Position numbers and translations under genes: made by a program. Under the pieces are notes generated by a model. It did no database searches. It was given only the letters and a program-made list of their open reading frames with translations, and was not told the DNA's origin. From Kushneria aurantia DSM 21353 (GTDB taxonomy: Bacteria; Pseudomonadota; Gammaproteobacteria; Pseudomonadales; Halomonadaceae), in contig NZ_KB907862.1 of assembly GCF_000382245.1 (NCBI RefSeq), forward strand, positions 62,001 through 126,000: DNA of 64,000 bases, given 5' to 3'. Shown here piece by piece: positions 30,154-37,679 of this stretch (positions are counted from its first letter, which is position 1; every line of letters starts with the position of its first letter).

Positions 30154-30411
30154 ATGAAAGTTGAGCTTGTGACAAACCTCAAGCGCCAGGCGACAAAAAT
30201 CCTGGCAGACCTGCATCACTCCAGGGAGCCGGTACTGATCACTGAGCATGGCCAGCCGTCTGCTTATCTTGTTGATGTGCAGGATTATGAGTTCATGCAG
30301 CGTCGGCTTGAGCTGCTTGAGGGGCTCTCACGAGGAGAGCGTGCCGTACTCGAGGAAAGAACGCACTGCCAGCGTGAGGCCAGGGAAAAAATGAGTAAAT
30401 GGCTGAAGTAA
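30154..30411 (+). CDS. Phd/YefM-family antitoxin
   Basis: An 85-aa antitoxin with the Phd/YefM core NLKRQATKILADLHHSREPVLITEHGQPSAYLVDVQDYE. The N-terminal part is a DNA-binding dimer and the C-terminal helix binds the toxin. It starts 27 bp after the palindrome and overlaps the toxin gene by 13 bp, the normal arrangement for this family. Confidence 0.9.
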   Translation: MKVELVTNLKRQATKILADLHHSREPVLITEHGQPSAYLVDVQDYEFMQRRLELLEGLSRGERAVLEERTHCQREAREKMSKWLK

Positions 30412-30701
30412 TCTGGACCGAGCCGGCCCTGCAACAATTGGACGCCATTGCCGAGTACATTGCGCTCGATAATCCAGCCGCTGCCACTCGACTGGTCCAG
30501 GCGGTTTTCGACAGGATCGAGCGCCTGGAGGATTTTCCCCACTCCGGACGGCTTCCGCCAGAACTGCCTGATTCGGTATACAGGGAGGTAGTGGTTCCAC
30601 CCTGTCGCATTGTTTGTCGTGCGGATGAGGAGCGGGTTCTGGTTCTCTACGTCATGCGAGAGGAGCAGCAGCTTCGTGCCTACATGCTTTCAAACAGCTA
30701 A
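30399..30701 (+). CDS. RelE/ParE-family toxin
   Basis: A 100-aa toxin: EVIWTEPALQQLDAIAEYIA, then ERLEDFPHSGRLPPEL and VPPCRIVCRADEERVLVLYVMR. The ParE/RelE fold is clear. The ELPDSVYREVVVPPCRI segment favours ParE-like (gyrase-directed) or RelE-like (RNase) activity; sequence alone does not decide. The complete length argues for an intact module. Confidence 0.9.
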   Translation: MAEVIWTEPALQQLDAIAEYIALDNPAAATRLVQAVFDRIERLEDFPHSGRLPPELPDSVYREVVVPPCRIVCRADEERVLVLYVMREEQQLRAYMLSNS

Positions 30702-31618: not shown

Positions 31619-32386
31619 ATGTGGGTACGTGCTCTGGTCTCAATGGTATTGATCACTTTCAGTCTCGACGCTGCGGCACGCGATCTGGATGCCATTATGG
31701 AAAGTGGCACCCTGCGTGTCGGCACGACCGGTGACTACAAGCCCTTCAGCCATGAAGATAATGGCCGGTATCAGGGGTTCGATATCACAATGGCCGAGAA
31801 GATGGCCCATGCCATGGGGCTTGAGCTCGAGTTCGTCAAAACAACCTGGCCGACCCTGATCAAGGACCTGCAGGACGACGACTACGATATCGGCATGAGC
31901 GGCATCAGTCGTACTCTCGCCCGTCAGCTTCAGGCACGCTATTCCACACCCTATCTGACCTATGGCAAAACGCCGTTAGTCAGGGCCGAGGAAGCGTCAC
32001 GCTTTACGTCGTTACAAGATATCGACCAACCCAACGTGCGCATCGGGGTCAATCCGGGCGGTACCAATGAAGCTTTCGTCAAGGCCAACATTCATCAGGC
32101 CGAGGTCATCACCTTCAACAATAATCTCGACATTCCGCCAGCCGTGGCCAACCACCAGGTGGATGTCATGATTACGGATAGCCCCGAAGCTCTCTTTTAC
32201 GCCCATGACAACGAACAGCTCGCGGCTCCCATGGCCGCCAACCCCTTGACCCAAAGCCAGCTGGCCTATTTGATGCAGGCCGATGCCGAGCGCCTTCAGG
32301 ATACCGTCGATTTTTTCCTGCATCAGCTTTCACTGACAGGCGAGCTGGACGCCATGCGCACCAGATACGGGCTAACGCCTCCATAA
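31619..32386 (+). CDS. PheC-like periplasmic cyclohexadienyl dehydratase / solute-binding protein
   Basis: A 255-aa protein with a signal peptide (residues 5-20). It has the periplasmic solute-binding fold of Pseudomonas PheC: LRVGTTGDYKPFSHEDNG, FDITMAEKMAHAMG, TTWPTLIKDLQDDDYDIGMS and VNPGGTNEAFVKANI. The acidic residue of the PheC active site is kept in MITDSPEALF. PheC turns prephenate or arogenate into phenylpyruvate or phenylalanine in the periplasm. It may instead simply bind an amino acid. No ABC permease lies next to it, which favours an enzyme. Codons are less GC-rich than in the origin region. Confidence 0.75.
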   Translation: MWVRALVSMVLITFSLDAAARDLDAIMESGTLRVGTTGDYKPFSHEDNGRYQGFDITMAEKMAHAMGLELEFVKTTWPTLIKDLQDDDYDIGMSGISRTLARQLQARYSTPYLTYGKTPLVRAEEASRFTSLQDIDQPNVRIGVNPGGTNEAFVKANIHQAEVITFNNNLDIPPAVANHQVDVMITDSPEALFYAHDNEQLAAPMAANPLTQSQLAYLMQADAERLQDTVDFFLHQLSLTGELDAMRTRYGLTPP

Positions 32387-32491
32387 TCGTCGCGATCAAA
32401 AATAGCTGCCCGGGCGACACCTTTGGGACATCTCGGGGTTGAAATGCGTCGATGACAGGCTACCAAGGTGGCGCGCACCTGGTTGGTCAGG

Positions 32492-33967
32492 CTATGGTCG
32501 AGACGACATAAGCCATTTCTCCTGCTCATGTGAGAGATTGCTGCCTGTCAGTACTGCGCTCACCGAACGTCCTCGGTAACGCTCGGGCTCGTGAAGCAGC
32601 GCCGCCAACGCAAGCGCACCGGCCGGCTCCAGCAGTAACCCCATATCGCGTCTGGCAAGTGTCATCGCCGCCATTATCTCCTCTTCACTGACCGATACGA
32701 TGTCATCAACCCAGTCGTCGATATCACTCAACGCTTCGGGGATAGGCTCGCGAACGGCAACACCATCCGCCATGGTATTCACCCGTGCCGTAGTGATCCT
32801 GCGGCCCTCACACCAGCTTATTCGTGTAGCATCGGCGCCGAGCGCGCAAACGCCTACTATTTCTACCCAGGGCATTGATGACTTGATCCAGCACCCTATG
32901 CCACCGATCAGAGCACCGTTGCCCAGGGGGATCAGTACGACCTCCGAGCAGGCTCCTTTCGCCGTCAACTCACAGGCGACAGTACCCGCGCCTTCGCTTA
33001 TCTCGATCTGCCGACCATCCTCGACCATGGTCAGGCCCTGCGCCCTTGCATGCTTGATCGCGGCCGTTTTGGCCTCATCGAAATCCTCGCCTGCTACTCG
33101 GATATCAGCGCCAAATGACCGTATCGCCGCAACCTTGCGAGCATTGGCGTGCTTTGAGACGAAGACCTGTAGCGGCACACCCTGCTGATGACAGCTCCAG
33201 GCCATCGCCATTCCCCAGTTACCGGCACTGGCACAAACGATGCCCGCCGCTCCATGCCTGTCAGCATGCTGCGCCACAAGACATGAAGCTCCGCGCCCCT
33301 TGAAACTGCGTATCGGGTTAAGCGTTTCGAGCTTGCATGTCAGATCAATACCGTCCAGAGGCCCCATGGGCGGTGGTCGAAACTGTGGCGTTGCGAGAAA
33401 TATTGGATCAATCCATTGGTGCGCCATGTCAATCCGCTCGGCATGCAAACGCGGTCCATGATGACAGGGAAAGGCATCCGTCGAGGCGCTGTCCCGCCAT
33501 CGAATTTCTTCAGCGCGCGCTGTCATCAGAATGCCGTCAAGATGATCCACCTCATGCTGAACCAGTTCGGATAGATGCGCGGGTAGCCTTCGACATTCAC
33601 GCAAAAAGCCCTTACCGTCATAAAAACGCAGACCAATGTGACAATGTCGTTTTACCCTGGCAGCTCGTCCGGGAAGACTGAAGCAGTTATCCCATACCCA
33701 CCGCATCTCATCGCTGCGCCAGGTGATCACCGGATCGATCAGGGTCAGCGGTCTGCCGCCCAGCTGCATCACGATGATGCGCAAACCAATACCGACCTGA
33801 GGCGCCGCCAATGCCCGACCGCTGCCATGGTATCCGCGACATTCGGCCAGAGTGGCATGCATTGACTCGGCTACAGGCTGCTGCGCGCGCCAGCCATCGC
33901 CCACAGAGCGGGCCGGTTGACATAGTCTTGTATCGGTTTCGGCTATCAGTGGTAGAACATTCGTCAT
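32492..33967 (-). CDS. Peptide deformylase - PLP threonine/serine dehydratase fusion
   Basis: A 491-aa fusion. Residues 1-160 are a peptide deformylase: motif 1 GRALAAPQVG (50-59), motif 2 DNCFS (93-97, metal ligand C95) and motif 3 QHEVDH (H138, E139, H142). All metal ligands and the catalytic glutamate are present; motif 2 differs from EGCLS. After a linker (160-185), residues 190-491 are a fold-type II PLP enzyme with K223 in SFKGRGA, SAGNWG for substrate carboxylate and the loop GNGALIGGIG (350-358). Such dehydratases make 2-oxo acids plus ammonia. One start, one frame and no stop between domains. Divergent from an Lrp regulator. Deformylation of N-formyl amino acids followed by deamination is an inference. 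Confidence 0.88.
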   Translation of the reverse strand: MTNVLPLIAETDTRLCQPARSVGDGWRAQQPVAESMHATLAECRGYHGSGRALAAPQVGIGLRIIVMQLGGRPLTLIDPVITWRSDEMRWVWDNCFSLPGRAARVKRHCHIGLRFYDGKGFLRECRRLPAHLSELVQHEVDHLDGILMTARAEEIRWRDSASTDAFPCHHGPRLHAERIDMAHQWIDPIFLATPQFRPPPMGPLDGIDLTCKLETLNPIRSFKGRGASCLVAQHADRHGAAGIVCASAGNWGMAMAWSCHQQGVPLQVFVSKHANARKVAAIRSFGADIRVAGEDFDEAKTAAIKHARAQGLTMVEDGRQIEISEGAGTVACELTAKGACSEVVLIPLGNGALIGGIGCWIKSSMPWVEIVGVCALGADATRISWCEGRRITTARVNTMADGVAVREPIPEALSDIDDWVDDIVSVSEEEIMAAMTLARRDMGLLLEPAGALALAALLHEPERYRGRSVSAVLTGSNLSHEQEKWLMSSRP

Positions 33968-34004
33968 GGTGGGCCTCTACTCCACAGCGTGTTTGAGGCA
34001 TTCT

Positions 34005-34568
34005 ATGGAGAATCATGGCTTCAAAGGCCGCATTTTGGCTCATATGGCTGCGGGAAAACCTCGAATGTCGAAGCGCAATGCAGGCAAACCGCAAACACCG
34101 GTTGCAGACGAGCTGGACAGACGTATTCTGGCCCTTTATCAACACGATACCCGCCTGACAGGAGAATATATTGGTGCCCGCGTCGGGCTGTCAGCGGCTG
34201 CGGTGCAGAGGCGCCTGAAGCGCCTGCGAAAAAGCGGTGTGATCGAAGCGGAAGTGGCTCGCCTGAACGCCGAGGTACTGGGATTGCCGGTAACCTGTGT
34301 GGTGGGTGTCGATCTCGAGCAGGAACGTAGTCCCCAGATTGACGCCTTCAAGCAGCGTATGCGCCAGCATCCACAGGTTGAGCAGTGCTTTTACGTCACC
34401 GGCGAGTTCGAATTTGTGCTGGTAGTGACTACACCCAGCCTTGCTGACTATGAGTGCTTCACGCGCGAGATGCTGATGAATACCCCCTGTGTCAGAGCCT
34501 TTACCACTCTGGTGAGCATGGACCGGGTAAAGCGCGGACCTTCGCTGGCACTGGAGGCAATACCATGA
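34005..34568 (+). CDS. Lrp/AsnC-family regulator
   Basis: A regulator of 187 aa from ATG 34005 (GAGG 6 nt upstream) or 167 aa from ATG 34065. The helix-turn-helix is DELDRRILALYQHDTRLTGEY with VGLSAAAVQRRLKRLRKSG; the RAM effector domain follows (VEQCFYVTGEFEFVLVVTTPS). Lrp proteins respond to amino acids and often control a divergent catabolic gene, here the deformylase-dehydratase fusion. It overlaps the VOC gene by 4 bp. The long basic N-terminal extension is unusual and may be untranslated. Confidence 0.85.
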   Translation: MENHGFKGRILAHMAAGKPRMSKRNAGKPQTPVADELDRRILALYQHDTRLTGEYIGARVGLSAAAVQRRLKRLRKSGVIEAEVARLNAEVLGLPVTCVVGVDLEQERSPQIDAFKQRMRQHPQVEQCFYVTGEFEFVLVVTTPSLADYECFTREMLMNTPCVRAFTTLVSMDRVKRGPSLALEAIP

Positions 34569-34969
34569 AACCCAAAATCAGCATCATCACCCTCGGTGTC
34601 GACGACCTCGCACGCGCCACCCGTTTCTACCGCGATGGAATGGGCCTGCCGCAGCACGATTTCGACAGTAACGACATTACCTTTTTCAGCCTCGAAGGCA
34701 GCTGGCTGGCGCTCTACCCGCGCGAAAAACTGGCCGAGGATATCGGTATCGCCGATACCGCGACTGGCACATGGAGCGGGATGACGCTGGCACATAACGT
34801 CGCGTCGAAAGAGGACGTTGACGCAGTTTTAAAGCAAGCGGTGAGCGCCGGTGCCACCCTGGCCAAACCCGCGCAGGAAGTTTTCTGGGGTGGCTATTCG
34901 GGCTACTTTCGCGATACCGAAGGGTACTATTGGGAAGTGGCCTATAACCCCTTCGAGGATTTGAGCTGA
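34565..34969 (+). CDS. VOC (glyoxalase-fold) protein
   Basis: A 134-aa single-module vicinal-oxygen-chelate protein: IITLGVDDLARATRFYRDGMG, FSLEGSWLALYPREKLAED, and WGGYSGYFRDTEGYYWEVAYNP. Members include glyoxalases, dioxygenases and resistance proteins; dimers share metal sites. It starts within the stop of the Lrp gene (ATGA), so they are co-translated. The substrate is unknown. Confidence 0.85.
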   Translation: MKPKISIITLGVDDLARATRFYRDGMGLPQHDFDSNDITFFSLEGSWLALYPREKLAEDIGIADTATGTWSGMTLAHNVASKEDVDAVLKQAVSAGATLAKPAQEVFWGGYSGYFRDTEGYYWEVAYNPFEDLS

Positions 34970-35297: not shown

Positions 35298-36503
35298 CTA
35301 CAGCCGCTGCTGGCTGCGCAGGTTGCGCATCACCTGGGCGACGTAGCGCATCTGCTCCGGCGTCCCCAGAGACGTTCGGCACCACTCCTGCGCCGGTGGA
35401 AAGGGGCGTCCCACCATCACGAAGTGCTCTTTCATCAACTGCTGGTATTGCGCCAGCGGTACCGGCGTACGGTGGAACACGAAGTTGGCCTCACTGGGCA
35501 GATAATCCATGCCCAGCTCCTCCAGCGCCCGGGTCAGAATGGCCCGGCTTTCGTCATTGCTCTGCTTGCTGCGCGCCAGGAAAGCATCATCGCGCATGGA
35601 GTGGCTCGCCGCTTCGACGCCGGGCCAGGAGAGGGTCATCCAGTCGCTTTCGATAAAGCCGGCGACATGCTCGACAAGCGGTGGCGCAGCCACCAGGTAG
35701 CCCACCCGTAGGCCCGCCATGGCGTGAATCTTGGAGAAGGTCTTGAGCAGTATGACGTTGTCCACACCGCGAGCGATCAGGCCATCGACCGAGCGGAAAG
35801 CGGGGTCGTTGACGAATTCACCGTAGGCTTCATCGACCACAAAGATGGTGTCGTCGGGCCGGCTCTCGATCCACGCCTCGATCTCGTCGGCGGGCGTAAT
35901 GGTGGCGGTAGGATTGTTGGGGTTGACCAGATAGACCACCGAGGCTCCATCGTGGTTGTCCACCAGGGCACGCATATCGGCCATCTCGAATGACCAGTCC
36001 TCCCGCGAGGAGGGGGCTCTGGCAATCGACATACCGTAGTTCGAGGCGTGATGCTCGCCGTCGCCGTAGGTCAGCTCCGGAATCACCAGCTGCGTATTCG
36101 AACCCCGGGCATGGGCGGCGATGGAGGCGCGAATGCCGGCCGAGGAGCCGGGCGTGAGCAGTAGCGACGCCGGCGCCACGCCGTGATGATCGGCCAGCTG
36201 CTGGCGAAATGGCGCCAGTCGCGAAAAGGGGTAGCGGTTGGCGCCGGAGATCGAGTCGATCGCCGCCAGCTGGGCGCGGGGCGACATGCCCAGCGCATTT
36301 TCGTTGTAGTTGATGCCGATGGGATGGGTTGCCGAAGGCGTTGCCATGCCGGCAGGCGCCGACGGTACGGCTTCACTCGCTCGGGTCGGTGTGCCGGGTA
36401 GCGCCAGCCCGCCCAGCCCGACACTCGCCAGGGCAGCGCCCGACATGCCAAGAAATTTGCGCCGGCTGGCGACCCGGCCTGAATCGGCTGGTGTCTCTTT
36501 CAT
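35298..36503 (-). CDS. Tat-exported aminotransferase (histidinol-phosphate aminotransferase-like)
   Basis: A 401-aa class I/II PLP aminotransferase with a twin-arginine signal: SRRKFLGMSGAALASVGLGG (RR at 14-15). The mature enzyme has INYNENALGMSPRA, VVYLVNPNNPTATITP, FVVDEAYGEFV and the PLP lysine in LLKTFSKIHAMAGLRVGY, close to HisC. Export of a folded cofactor enzyme fits the Tat route. Histidine synthesis is cytoplasmic, so the role must differ, perhaps amino-acid transamination in the periplasm. No his genes are nearby. Divergent from an arginase-family gene. Confidence 0.85.
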   Translation of the reverse strand: MKETPADSGRVASRRKFLGMSGAALASVGLGGLALPGTPTRASEAVPSAPAGMATPSATHPIGINYNENALGMSPRAQLAAIDSISGANRYPFSRLAPFRQQLADHHGVAPASLLLTPGSSAGIRASIAAHARGSNTQLVIPELTYGDGEHHASNYGMSIARAPSSREDWSFEMADMRALVDNHDGASVVYLVNPNNPTATITPADEIEAWIESRPDDTIFVVDEAYGEFVNDPAFRSVDGLIARGVDNVILLKTFSKIHAMAGLRVGYLVAAPPLVEHVAGFIESDWMTLSWPGVEAASHSMRDDAFLARSKQSNDESRAILTRALEELGMDYLPSEANFVFHRTPVPLAQYQQLMKEHFVMVGRPFPPAQEWCRTSLGTPEQMRYVAQVMRNLRSQQRL

Positions 36504-36650: not shown

Positions 36651-37454
36651 ATGATTCTTTTCCAGGGACGTAGCGCAGACCGCTCTCCACACGCCATGGC
36701 AGGCGCACAACGTCTTGCACAGACGCTTGCCGGGCGGCTCGACACCACTTTCACGAAAGTGGGAACACCCCGTACTCCGCTTGATGCCGACTGGCAGGCG
36801 CAGTTGGCAAGCGCCTTGCCGGAACTTCGCCAGCTCGCCGAGACGCTGACGCTGCGTCTGGTGGAGGGTCATAAACCTCTTGCCGTACTGCCGCGATGCG
36901 CTGCTGCGCTGGCCACACTACCGGTCATTGCACGCCATCATCCCGATGCCTGCCTGATCTGGCTCGATGCTCATGGTGATCTCAATACCCCCGCCAGCTC
37001 GGTCTCCGGCTATCTGGGCGGCATGGTGCTGACGGCCGCAGCCGAACTGTGGGACAGCGGTCTGGGTAGCGGCTGGCGCCTCGACCAGGTGGTGCTGGCC
37101 GATGGCCGCGAACTGGATCAAGCCGAACTTGCGTTGATCACGCAGTACGACATTCGGCACCTGACTTCTGAAAGCCTGACGCCAGAGGCGCTTTCGCAGG
37201 CCATCGGCAACCGTCCGGTCTATCTCCATCTCGACTGCGACCTGCTGGCTCCCGGTCTGATGCCCACCGAATACAGCGTTGCAGGGGGCCCCGATCTGGC
37301 ACAGCTATACGCGCTCTGCAGTGCCATCGGCCATCACGAATTGATCGGCCTTGAGGTCGCCGAATTCGAGGAGCAGCCTGATTTTGCCATGGCGGAAGCC
37401 GCCGAAGCGCTCTGCGATGCACTTGCGCCGGTTTATGAGCGACTGTATCGCTGA
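36651..37454 (+). CDS. Arginase/agmatinase-family protein lacking motif 1
   Basis: A 267-aa ureohydrolase-fold protein. The second and third metal motifs are present, WLDAHGDLN (D106, H108, D110) and HLDCDLLAPG (D195, D197). The first motif, normally GGDHS or GGDCS, reads VLPRCAAAL here (around 79-87), so one ligand position is changed. It may have one metal, a changed reaction, or no catalysis. The start and ribosome site are not strong; ATG 36651 is used. Arginase, agmatinase and formiminoglutamase activity are all possible. Confidence 0.75.
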   Translation: MILFQGRSADRSPHAMAGAQRLAQTLAGRLDTTFTKVGTPRTPLDADWQAQLASALPELRQLAETLTLRLVEGHKPLAVLPRCAAALATLPVIARHHPDACLIWLDAHGDLNTPASSVSGYLGGMVLTAAAELWDSGLGSGWRLDQVVLADGRELDQAELALITQYDIRHLTSESLTPEALSQAIGNRPVYLHLDCDLLAPGLMPTEYSVAGGPDLAQLYALCSAIGHHELIGLEVAEFEEQPDFAMAEAAEALCDALAPVYERLYR

Positions 37455-37679
37455 GGATATGGGCACCCCGAAAGAGACGGCGCCGGACGCAGCATGGCGG
37501 CGTGATCAACGGGCCCGGTAGCCACCTGCGTCCAGTCGTTCACATCTTTCAGATCGTCGATATCTTGATCGCCGCGGCCATAGCGCTGTCTCTCTGCTGC
37601 TGGCTTTCCGCTCGCTGATCGCACAAATTGAATCGCGTCATCCATCGTTTTCGCGACGATTGGCCAGGCCCGACAGGCG

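Follow-up and report, generated by a model that had tools for sequence, protein, structure and literature searches.

What is a peptide deformylase (PDF), a textbook enzyme of translation and a target of antibiotics, doing at the head of an enzyme of amino-acid metabolism? The question is raised by one gene in the stretch of Kushneria aurantia DNA analysed here (the window, 64,000 nucleotides), in which an N-terminal deformylase domain is joined in frame to a fold-type II PLP domain (Table 1). We propose, tentatively and at somewhat under an even chance, that its product is a bifunctional catabolic enzyme that would deformylate a small N-formyl amino acid and then deaminate the product; the substrate, the order of the steps, the activity and the role of the adjacent Lrp regulator are those that we infer.

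Table 1. Features of the window, with their positions in it, and the fusions found in other assemblies.
Feature	Position	Strand	Basis or remark
PDF-PALP fusion gene	32492..33967	minus	ORF, 491 codons, ATG start
Deformylase domain, PF01327, residues 11-154	33506..33937	minus	Pfam, alignment, AlphaFold2, Foldseek
Linker, residues 155-191	33395..33505	minus	AlphaFold2
Fold-type II PLP domain, PF00291, residues 192-475	32543..33394	minus	Pfam, alignment, AlphaFold2, Foldseek
PLP lysine K223	33299-33301	minus	alignment
Lrp/AsnC-family regulator, divergent	34065..34568	plus	start chosen by homology
VOC/glyoxalase-fold protein	34565..34969	plus	ATG overlaps Lrp stop codon
SBP_bac_3 amino-acid-type solute-binding protein	31619..32386	plus	tail to tail with fusion gene
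Lower-GC block (SBP, fusion, Lrp, VOC)	31619..34969		56-58% GC, window 62.5%; ends approximate
Fusion L062			uncultured
Fusion L063			Polaromonas bin
Fusion L064			Betaproteobacteria bin
Fusion L065			Tahibacter aquaticus
Fusion L066			Planctomycetota bin
Fusion L067			Burkholderiaceae bacterium 16
Fusion L068			Bryobacteraceae (Acidobacteriota) bin
Fusion L069			Granulosicoccaceae bin
Fusion L070			Luteimonas saliphila
Fusion G901			new from search of 349 genomes, order of Polaromonas bin

The original prediction had described a single 491-codon frame joining a deformylase to a PLP enzyme, and this is borne out: the ORF translation is free of internal stops, and Pfam recognises both halves (PF01327 with 89.3 bits, cut-off 22.8; PF00291 with 220.8 bits, cut-off 35). 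An AlphaFold2 model of the whole fusion, based on 26 alignment rows, has a mean pLDDT of 91.2 and a pTM of 0.90, with low confidence around linker residues 161-170; a model of the deformylase half reaches 92.9 and 0.89. In Foldseek searches, the whole-fusion model matches threonine deaminases and serine racemases, and the top matches of the deformylase half are crystal structures of peptide deformylases. A profile of nine fusions gave 223 matches among PDB sequences, and each of the 60 listed covers one half only. Motif I of the window protein reads GRALAAPQ (residues 50-57), motif II DNC with C95, and motif III QHEVDH with H138, E139 and H142, while K223 of the PLP half sits in SFK. The five catalytic residues had been placed correctly in the original prediction, and together with R51 and Q57 they are invariant in an alignment of nine fusions (the window protein and eight others).

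An artefact of assembly or sequencing is rejected in view of the ten other fusions in other assemblies, as is the notion that the architecture is private to the window genome. These ten PDF-PALP proteins, the outcome of a search for like architectures suggested at the outset, have the same domain order and come mostly from Pseudomonadota, plus metagenome bins of Acidobacteriota and Planctomycetota; the spread beyond Pseudomonadota, resting on such bins, is provisional. Nine of them emerged from a scan of genome_contigs (84,980 species) with an alignment of the PDF half, of which the best 80 of 505 confirmed loci were kept: in the top nine loci the PDF frame runs on for 337-360 residues, and the extension is a PLP domain in 9/9. 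The tenth, G901, came from 349 genomes of the order of the Polaromonas bin, three of which hold the fusion and one a lone PLP half. No further full-length match was seen among 369 genomes of the class and 398 of the phylum, where, as in the order, the best 3-4 candidates per genome were scored. Among the 58 genomes of the relatives set the fusion occurs in the window genome only, and within the genus the gene is private to that genome, being carried by none of nine genus mates. The fusion, then, is rare.

Whole-protein scans of genome_contigs and viral_contigs gave no relative. Since the genome_contigs scan overlooked fusions that the PDF-half scan later found, such a miss proves little on carriage by phages. 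On plasmids there are separate PLP or PDF matches, none covering more than 80% of the query. A scan of viral contigs with the PDF clade (best 80 of 525 loci) gave top segments that are 31-42% identical, and among viral structures Foldseek found ten matches with an E of 0.001 or lower, of which those with a named function are PLP enzymes or deformylases.

In L062 and L064, the two most similar fusions, purifying selection acts on both halves (PDF half: dN 0.013, dS 0.177, dN/dS ~0.07; PLP half: dN 0.013, dS 0.141, dN/dS ~0.09). L064, near-identical to L062, was omitted from the fusion alignment, whose other eight members are 42-49% identical to the window protein. When L070 is dropped and eight fusions are compared, the window copy is the most divergent: it keeps 113 of the 136 columns that are invariant in the seven others (83%), against 87-96% when each of the rest is left out in turn, and it keeps the named catalytic residues despite this. 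In the Luteimonas saliphila fusion (L070:9887-11443), which was retained in the alignment and trees, a stretch of the PDF half reads like a shifted frame.

Is the fused deformylase a translation enzyme? On the NCBIfam peptide deformylase model (TIGR00079) it scores 60.7 bits, below the cut-off of 103.95, as do all three relatives tried (L054, L096 and L104), whereas the window genome's own Def, the yardstick proposed in the original prediction, passes with 191.6 bits; its canonical def adjoins fmt elsewhere in the genome (contig C15). Peptide deformylases read EGC in motif II and have a hydrophobic second residue in motif I, and the genome's own Def accordingly has EGCLS and GIGLAATQ, whereas the fusion has DNC and GRA. 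The metal ligands Cys, His and His and the catalytic Glu are all in place. Every fusion genome examined (9/9) has a further PDF that outscores the fused one in Pfam, and a canonical def-fmt pair is present in the window genome, so the fused deformylase is probably not required in translation.

It might still act on nascent or free formyl-Met peptides, the PLP partner being incidental or profiting from the released methionine. The fold is that of a PDF, and an accessory PDF of Vibrio cholerae is described, in the available text of a recent survey, as supporting growth without the canonical one (PMC12690207). Yet the score on the NCBIfam model and the better-scoring PDF in every fusion genome examined speak against such a role, and so does the model of the PDF half, which finishes in a short strand and lacks the C-terminal helix that, in the same text, binds the ribosome in E. 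coli (PMC12690207). Between the catalytic part and residue 168 of that model, the sole helix is 148-151. We consider a formyl-Met peptide substrate improbable.

Where, then, does the fused deformylase belong? A PDF tree of 76 rows (33 canonical PDFs, the 11 fusions, two aminotransferase fusions and 30 of 74 unfused non-canonical PDFs) splits canonical from non-canonical sequences with support of 100/100. The 11 fusion PDFs, with L076, form one clade (100/97), adjoined by L096, L084, L095, L051, L055 and L112, and two Burkholderia fusions of a PDF to an aminotransferase (L054 and L057), together with L056, lie in a neighbouring, separate branch. L076 (L076:33-782) is a deformylase whose branch falls inside the fusion clade; it retains some of the linker and stops ahead of any PLP domain, a possible secondary loss or bin error.

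The split is mirrored in the motifs. Motif II is D[DN]C in 87/87 non-canonical rows, and EGC in 32/33 and DGC in 1/33 canonical rows (34 loci tried, L272 unreadable), counts that are partly by construction: canonical rows were picked by GC followed by any residue and Ser, and one of two patterns in the scan that supplied most non-canonical rows contains WD[DN]C. Motif I was used for neither set, and it reads GR[AG] in 82 of the 87 non-canonical rows as against 0/32 readable canonical ones; among the other five, the Arg is kept in three (L067, L112 and L135) and replaced by Asn in L055. The original prediction had read motif II of the window protein correctly as DNCFS and had seen in it a possible shift in substrate choice; D[DN]C is, however, the usual form in related sequences. 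Canonical PDFs have Ile, Val, Ala, Cys or Leu in place of the motif I Arg. The window genome's own Def has Ile there, which we take to be Ile44 in E. coli numbering and which presumably lies beside the bound P1′ residue in E. coli structures. Judged from the sequence, the Arg could hold a free carboxylate, and it would suit that of the substrate proposed here.

Twenty-two genomes, picked from 71 loci with an unfused member of the clade, were searched for a further PDF match, and 19 have one; the remaining three are a Mizugakiibacter, an Ignavibacteria bin and a Theionarchaea bin. In the last, an archaeal bin, the sole PDF found (L104) has a motif II of D[DN]C form. Because archaea do not begin proteins with formyl-Met, this deformylase would point to a role outside translation, with the caution due to a metagenome bin.

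By its motifs, rather than by its place in a published tree, the fused deformylase may be likened to the type 3 PDFs, which in the available text of two accounts have the PDF fold, HExxH and substitutions in motifs I and II (PMC5591237, PMC12690207). The likeness extends to the whole clade, which, with an archaeal bin among its sources, shares with type 3 a broad, scattered distribution and, in most cases, the status of a second copy in genomes that keep a canonical PDF. The PLP partner sets the fusion apart: in that text neither such a fusion nor an amino-acid role appears for type 3. The same text credits most type 3 PDFs with weak activity or none (PMC5591237, PMC12690207), which counts against the catalytic reading that we prefer.

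The PLP half raises the complementary question of what is being deaminated. It had been called a complete threonine/serine dehydratase, and the fold type and the Schiff-base lysine in SFK agree with this, as do the top structural matches, all shared with IlvA, TdcB and other fold-type II PLP enzymes; the equivalog scores and the tree, however, set it apart from IlvA and TdcB, as does its N-terminal PDF. It misses the cut-offs of all 25 NCBIfam families listed of 43, the best being threonine dehydratase (193.1 against 317), and in a tree of 36 rows a split with support of 100/98 puts the 11 fusion halves together with 11 stand-alone relatives on one side and 14 comparison rows of dehydratase-like sequences on the other. 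Its nearest relatives are stand-alone frames, most of 317-385 residues, and two lone genes, L250 and L096, join the fusion halves in one branch (92/84, unstarred). The stand-alone genes L041, L042 and L044 and an Agrobacterium plasmid gene (L052) have a divergent Lrp gene, in a Deinococcus plasmid gene (L050) the divergent regulator is of the GntR type, and L043 shows no Lrp in the available stretch. In five genomes whose PLP gene stands alone there are 10 PDF matches, of which the seven readable ones are all of the EGC type (L322-L324 are unreadable); thus, the PLP reaction seems not to require a deformylase of the fused, D[DN]C type.

Given that the PLP domain stands alone in L041, L042 and L044, the PDF half is an add-on, and with its changed motif II it might serve, without turnover, as a sensor or regulatory domain, tuning the PLP enzyme in response to a bound amino acid or formyl compound, a service that ACT domains perform for the biosynthetic threonine dehydratase. 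However, neither the nine aligned fusions nor a 24-row PDF alignment shows any variation in the Cys, the two His and the catalytic Glu, and a pure binding domain would have no need of the Glu. A purely regulatory role is, in our view, unlikely.

The surroundings of the gene place it in an amino-acid context. The divergent Lrp regulator named in the original prediction is indeed there, its start lying 97 bases from that of the fusion. A related Lrp gene stands beside the fusion in L063 and L065, and in G901 one follows the fusion tail to tail, with mutual identities, that of the window Lrp included, of 51-55%, and a more distant one lies ~5 kb from the fusion in L067; near the other six fusions, several of whose contigs are short on one side, there is no Lrp match. 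On the far side of the window fusion, the neighbour that had been called PheC-like is in fact a solute-binding protein (SBP_bac_3). Its top NCBIfam matches, models of basic-amino-acid and of cystine binding proteins, all stay below cut-off, and PheC is not among the matches. VOC proteins occur near the window, L065 and L069 fusions, and blastp ruled them out as one conserved partner: the window protein has no match to the other two, which share an 18-residue match only.

Some unfused relatives of the deformylase half have similar company. In L096, a PLP frame comes first and the PDF frame 4 bases later, downstream of a frame for an Lrp ligand-binding domain, so that the pairing exists in the reverse order too. 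In L083, a threonine-dehydratase-like frame overlaps the PDF frame, its PLP product falling in the dehydratase branch and not in that of the fusions. In L056 (Paraburkholderia), the overlap between the PDF and a class IV aminotransferase gene is one of start and stop codon; in the vicinity are also Lrp, further PLP and ArgE-like genes, and a binding protein of the branched-chain type. A class IV aminotransferase is the divergent next-door neighbour of the PDF in L112, and in L051 (Ancylobacter) Lrp, PDF and an ArgE-like gene follow in succession, with a class IV aminotransferase, two genes from the PDF, and a glycine C-acetyltransferase on the opposite strand. Two replicons, of Burkholderia cenocepacia and B. 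arboris, carry an in-frame fusion of a deformylase with a class IV aminotransferase (L054:4995-6482 and L057:4875-6362), near Lrp and a branched-chain-type binding protein. These share with the window fusion the PDF clade, the N-terminal position of the PDF, a PLP-enzyme partner and a nearby Lrp, but the PLP fold and reaction differ and the PDF branch is a neighbouring, separate one.

How general is this company? PALP, class IV aminotransferase or Lrp queries match within 1.5 kb of 5/74 unfused non-canonical PDFs (L051, L056, L083, L096 and L112) as against 0/33 canonical ones, a small contrast, and some of the queries derive from L051 and L056, without which it becomes 3/72 against 0/33. Since 67/74 unfused members have none of the PLP-enzyme queries within 1.5 kb, the amino-acid link belongs to some members near the fusions and not to the whole clade. 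Clustering of the genes around the PDF-half scan loci revealed no shared partner across the wide clade, and its largest cluster comprises nine loci. Weak class III aminotransferase matches near L071 and L072 (E 9e-11 and 2e-12) were not counted as support.

The ArgE-like M20 deacylases in the L051 and L056 clusters, together with the changes in motifs I and II, would also fit a PDF half that removes some other small acyl group, such as acetyl or carbamoyl, from an amino acid, formyl not being its natural group. Yet ArgE-like frames lie within 1.5 kb of canonical PDFs too (2/33, against 2/74 non-canonical), and the PDF family strongly prefers formyl; we give this possibility little credence. 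Least probable of all is a detoxification route in which the PDF half would come last, hydrolysing an isonitrile-derived formamide or a related N-acyl toxin: the gene after the L063 (Polaromonas) fusion encodes a DJ-1/PfpI protein whose best PDB match is the isonitrile hydratase InhA (E 2.9e-23), and a DJ-1 frame lies beside the PDF of L084, but this superfamily is broad, the NCBIfam matches are regulators and deglycases below cut-off, DJ-1 adjoins 1/11 fusions (a second DJ-1 match, in a regulator-like frame, lies ~1.5 kb from the L070 fusion), and no isonitrile model matches the six window neighbours scanned.

We return to the consecutive deformylation and deamination proposed at the outset. 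Because the fusion recurs and some PDF relatives lie near, or are fused to, PLP enzymes, a link between deformylation and amino-acid breakdown is more than a guess, and the evidence suggests that the fused deformylase works in such breakdown. The N-terminal metal-dependent PDF domain would split formate off a small N-formyl amino acid, or off a formyl peptide of very few residues, and the C-terminal PLP domain would then eliminate ammonia from the freed amino acid, which probably carries a β-hydroxyl or similar leaving group, to give a 2-oxo acid. Both steps occurring consecutively on one chain would be the simplest reading, and the divergent Lrp probably senses an amino acid and controls the fusion gene. 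As first put forward, the idea drew on a real fusion, two intact catalytic sets and an amino-acid context, all of which stand, and on a motif II change that is not private to the gene. Weighing against it are the divergence of the window copy, the motif I Asn of L055, the many unfused members without a PLP-enzyme neighbour and the lone PLP genes in genomes whose readable PDFs are all of the EGC type.

It is tempting to go further and suppose that the whole GR[AG]/D[DN]C clade, from Bacteroidota to the archaeal bin, consists of metabolic N-formyl-amino-acid hydrolases, one branch of which became fused to two PLP folds in routes feeding on formylated amino acids, though this broader proposal we rate as rather unlikely. 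If the reading of the fusion is true, N-formyl amino acids are a nutrient or waste with a dedicated two-step enzyme in some bacteria. To our knowledge, the fusion is the first concrete, testable hint on the role of one branch of the motif-changed PDFs.

A survey of PDFs in 5,042 genomes, in which 48% of bacterial species carry more than one PDF, names in its available text a single fusion, the Def-Fmt of Exiguobacterium (PMC12690207). That protein, too, joins a PDF in frame to a second catalytic domain, but its partner is a translation enzyme and it complements E. coli, whereas the partner in the window fusion is a PLP enzyme of amino-acid metabolism (PMC12690207, same text). The words "dehydratase" and "aminotransferase" have zero occurrences in the main text of that survey, and among the papers listed in searches of open-licence PubMed Central, none describes a PDF-PALP or PDF-aminotransferase fusion in its title or the beginning of its abstract.

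How did the gene come to Kushneria aurantia? The four genes of the lower-GC block (Table 1) contrast with gyrB (64% GC) and the HisC-like gene (64.5%) in the flanks, where gene names were assigned partly by eye. By blastn, the window from ~32.1 to 36.9 kb has no match in 9/9 genus mates (30 of 68-138 candidates scored per genome), while the gyrB flank is found in 9/9 and the exonuclease-like and arginase-like stretches in 7/9; parts of the SBP gene match elsewhere at ~66%. The low-GC block and the unmatched stretch differ in their limits, so the ends are approximate. The fusion cassette was probably acquired by transfer.

Other features of the locus may be recorded here. A HisC-like aminotransferase (35298-36503), with a Tat-type signal by eye, and an arginase-like protein (36651-37454) both score below NCBIfam cut-offs. 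At 30154-30411 and 30399-30701 lie two overlapping small genes which we take, by eye, to encode a Phd/YefM-type antitoxin and a ParE-type toxin. Immediately beyond the gyrB stop, a 39-bp stretch (37640-37678) has copies of 87-90% identity at several other sites in the window genome.
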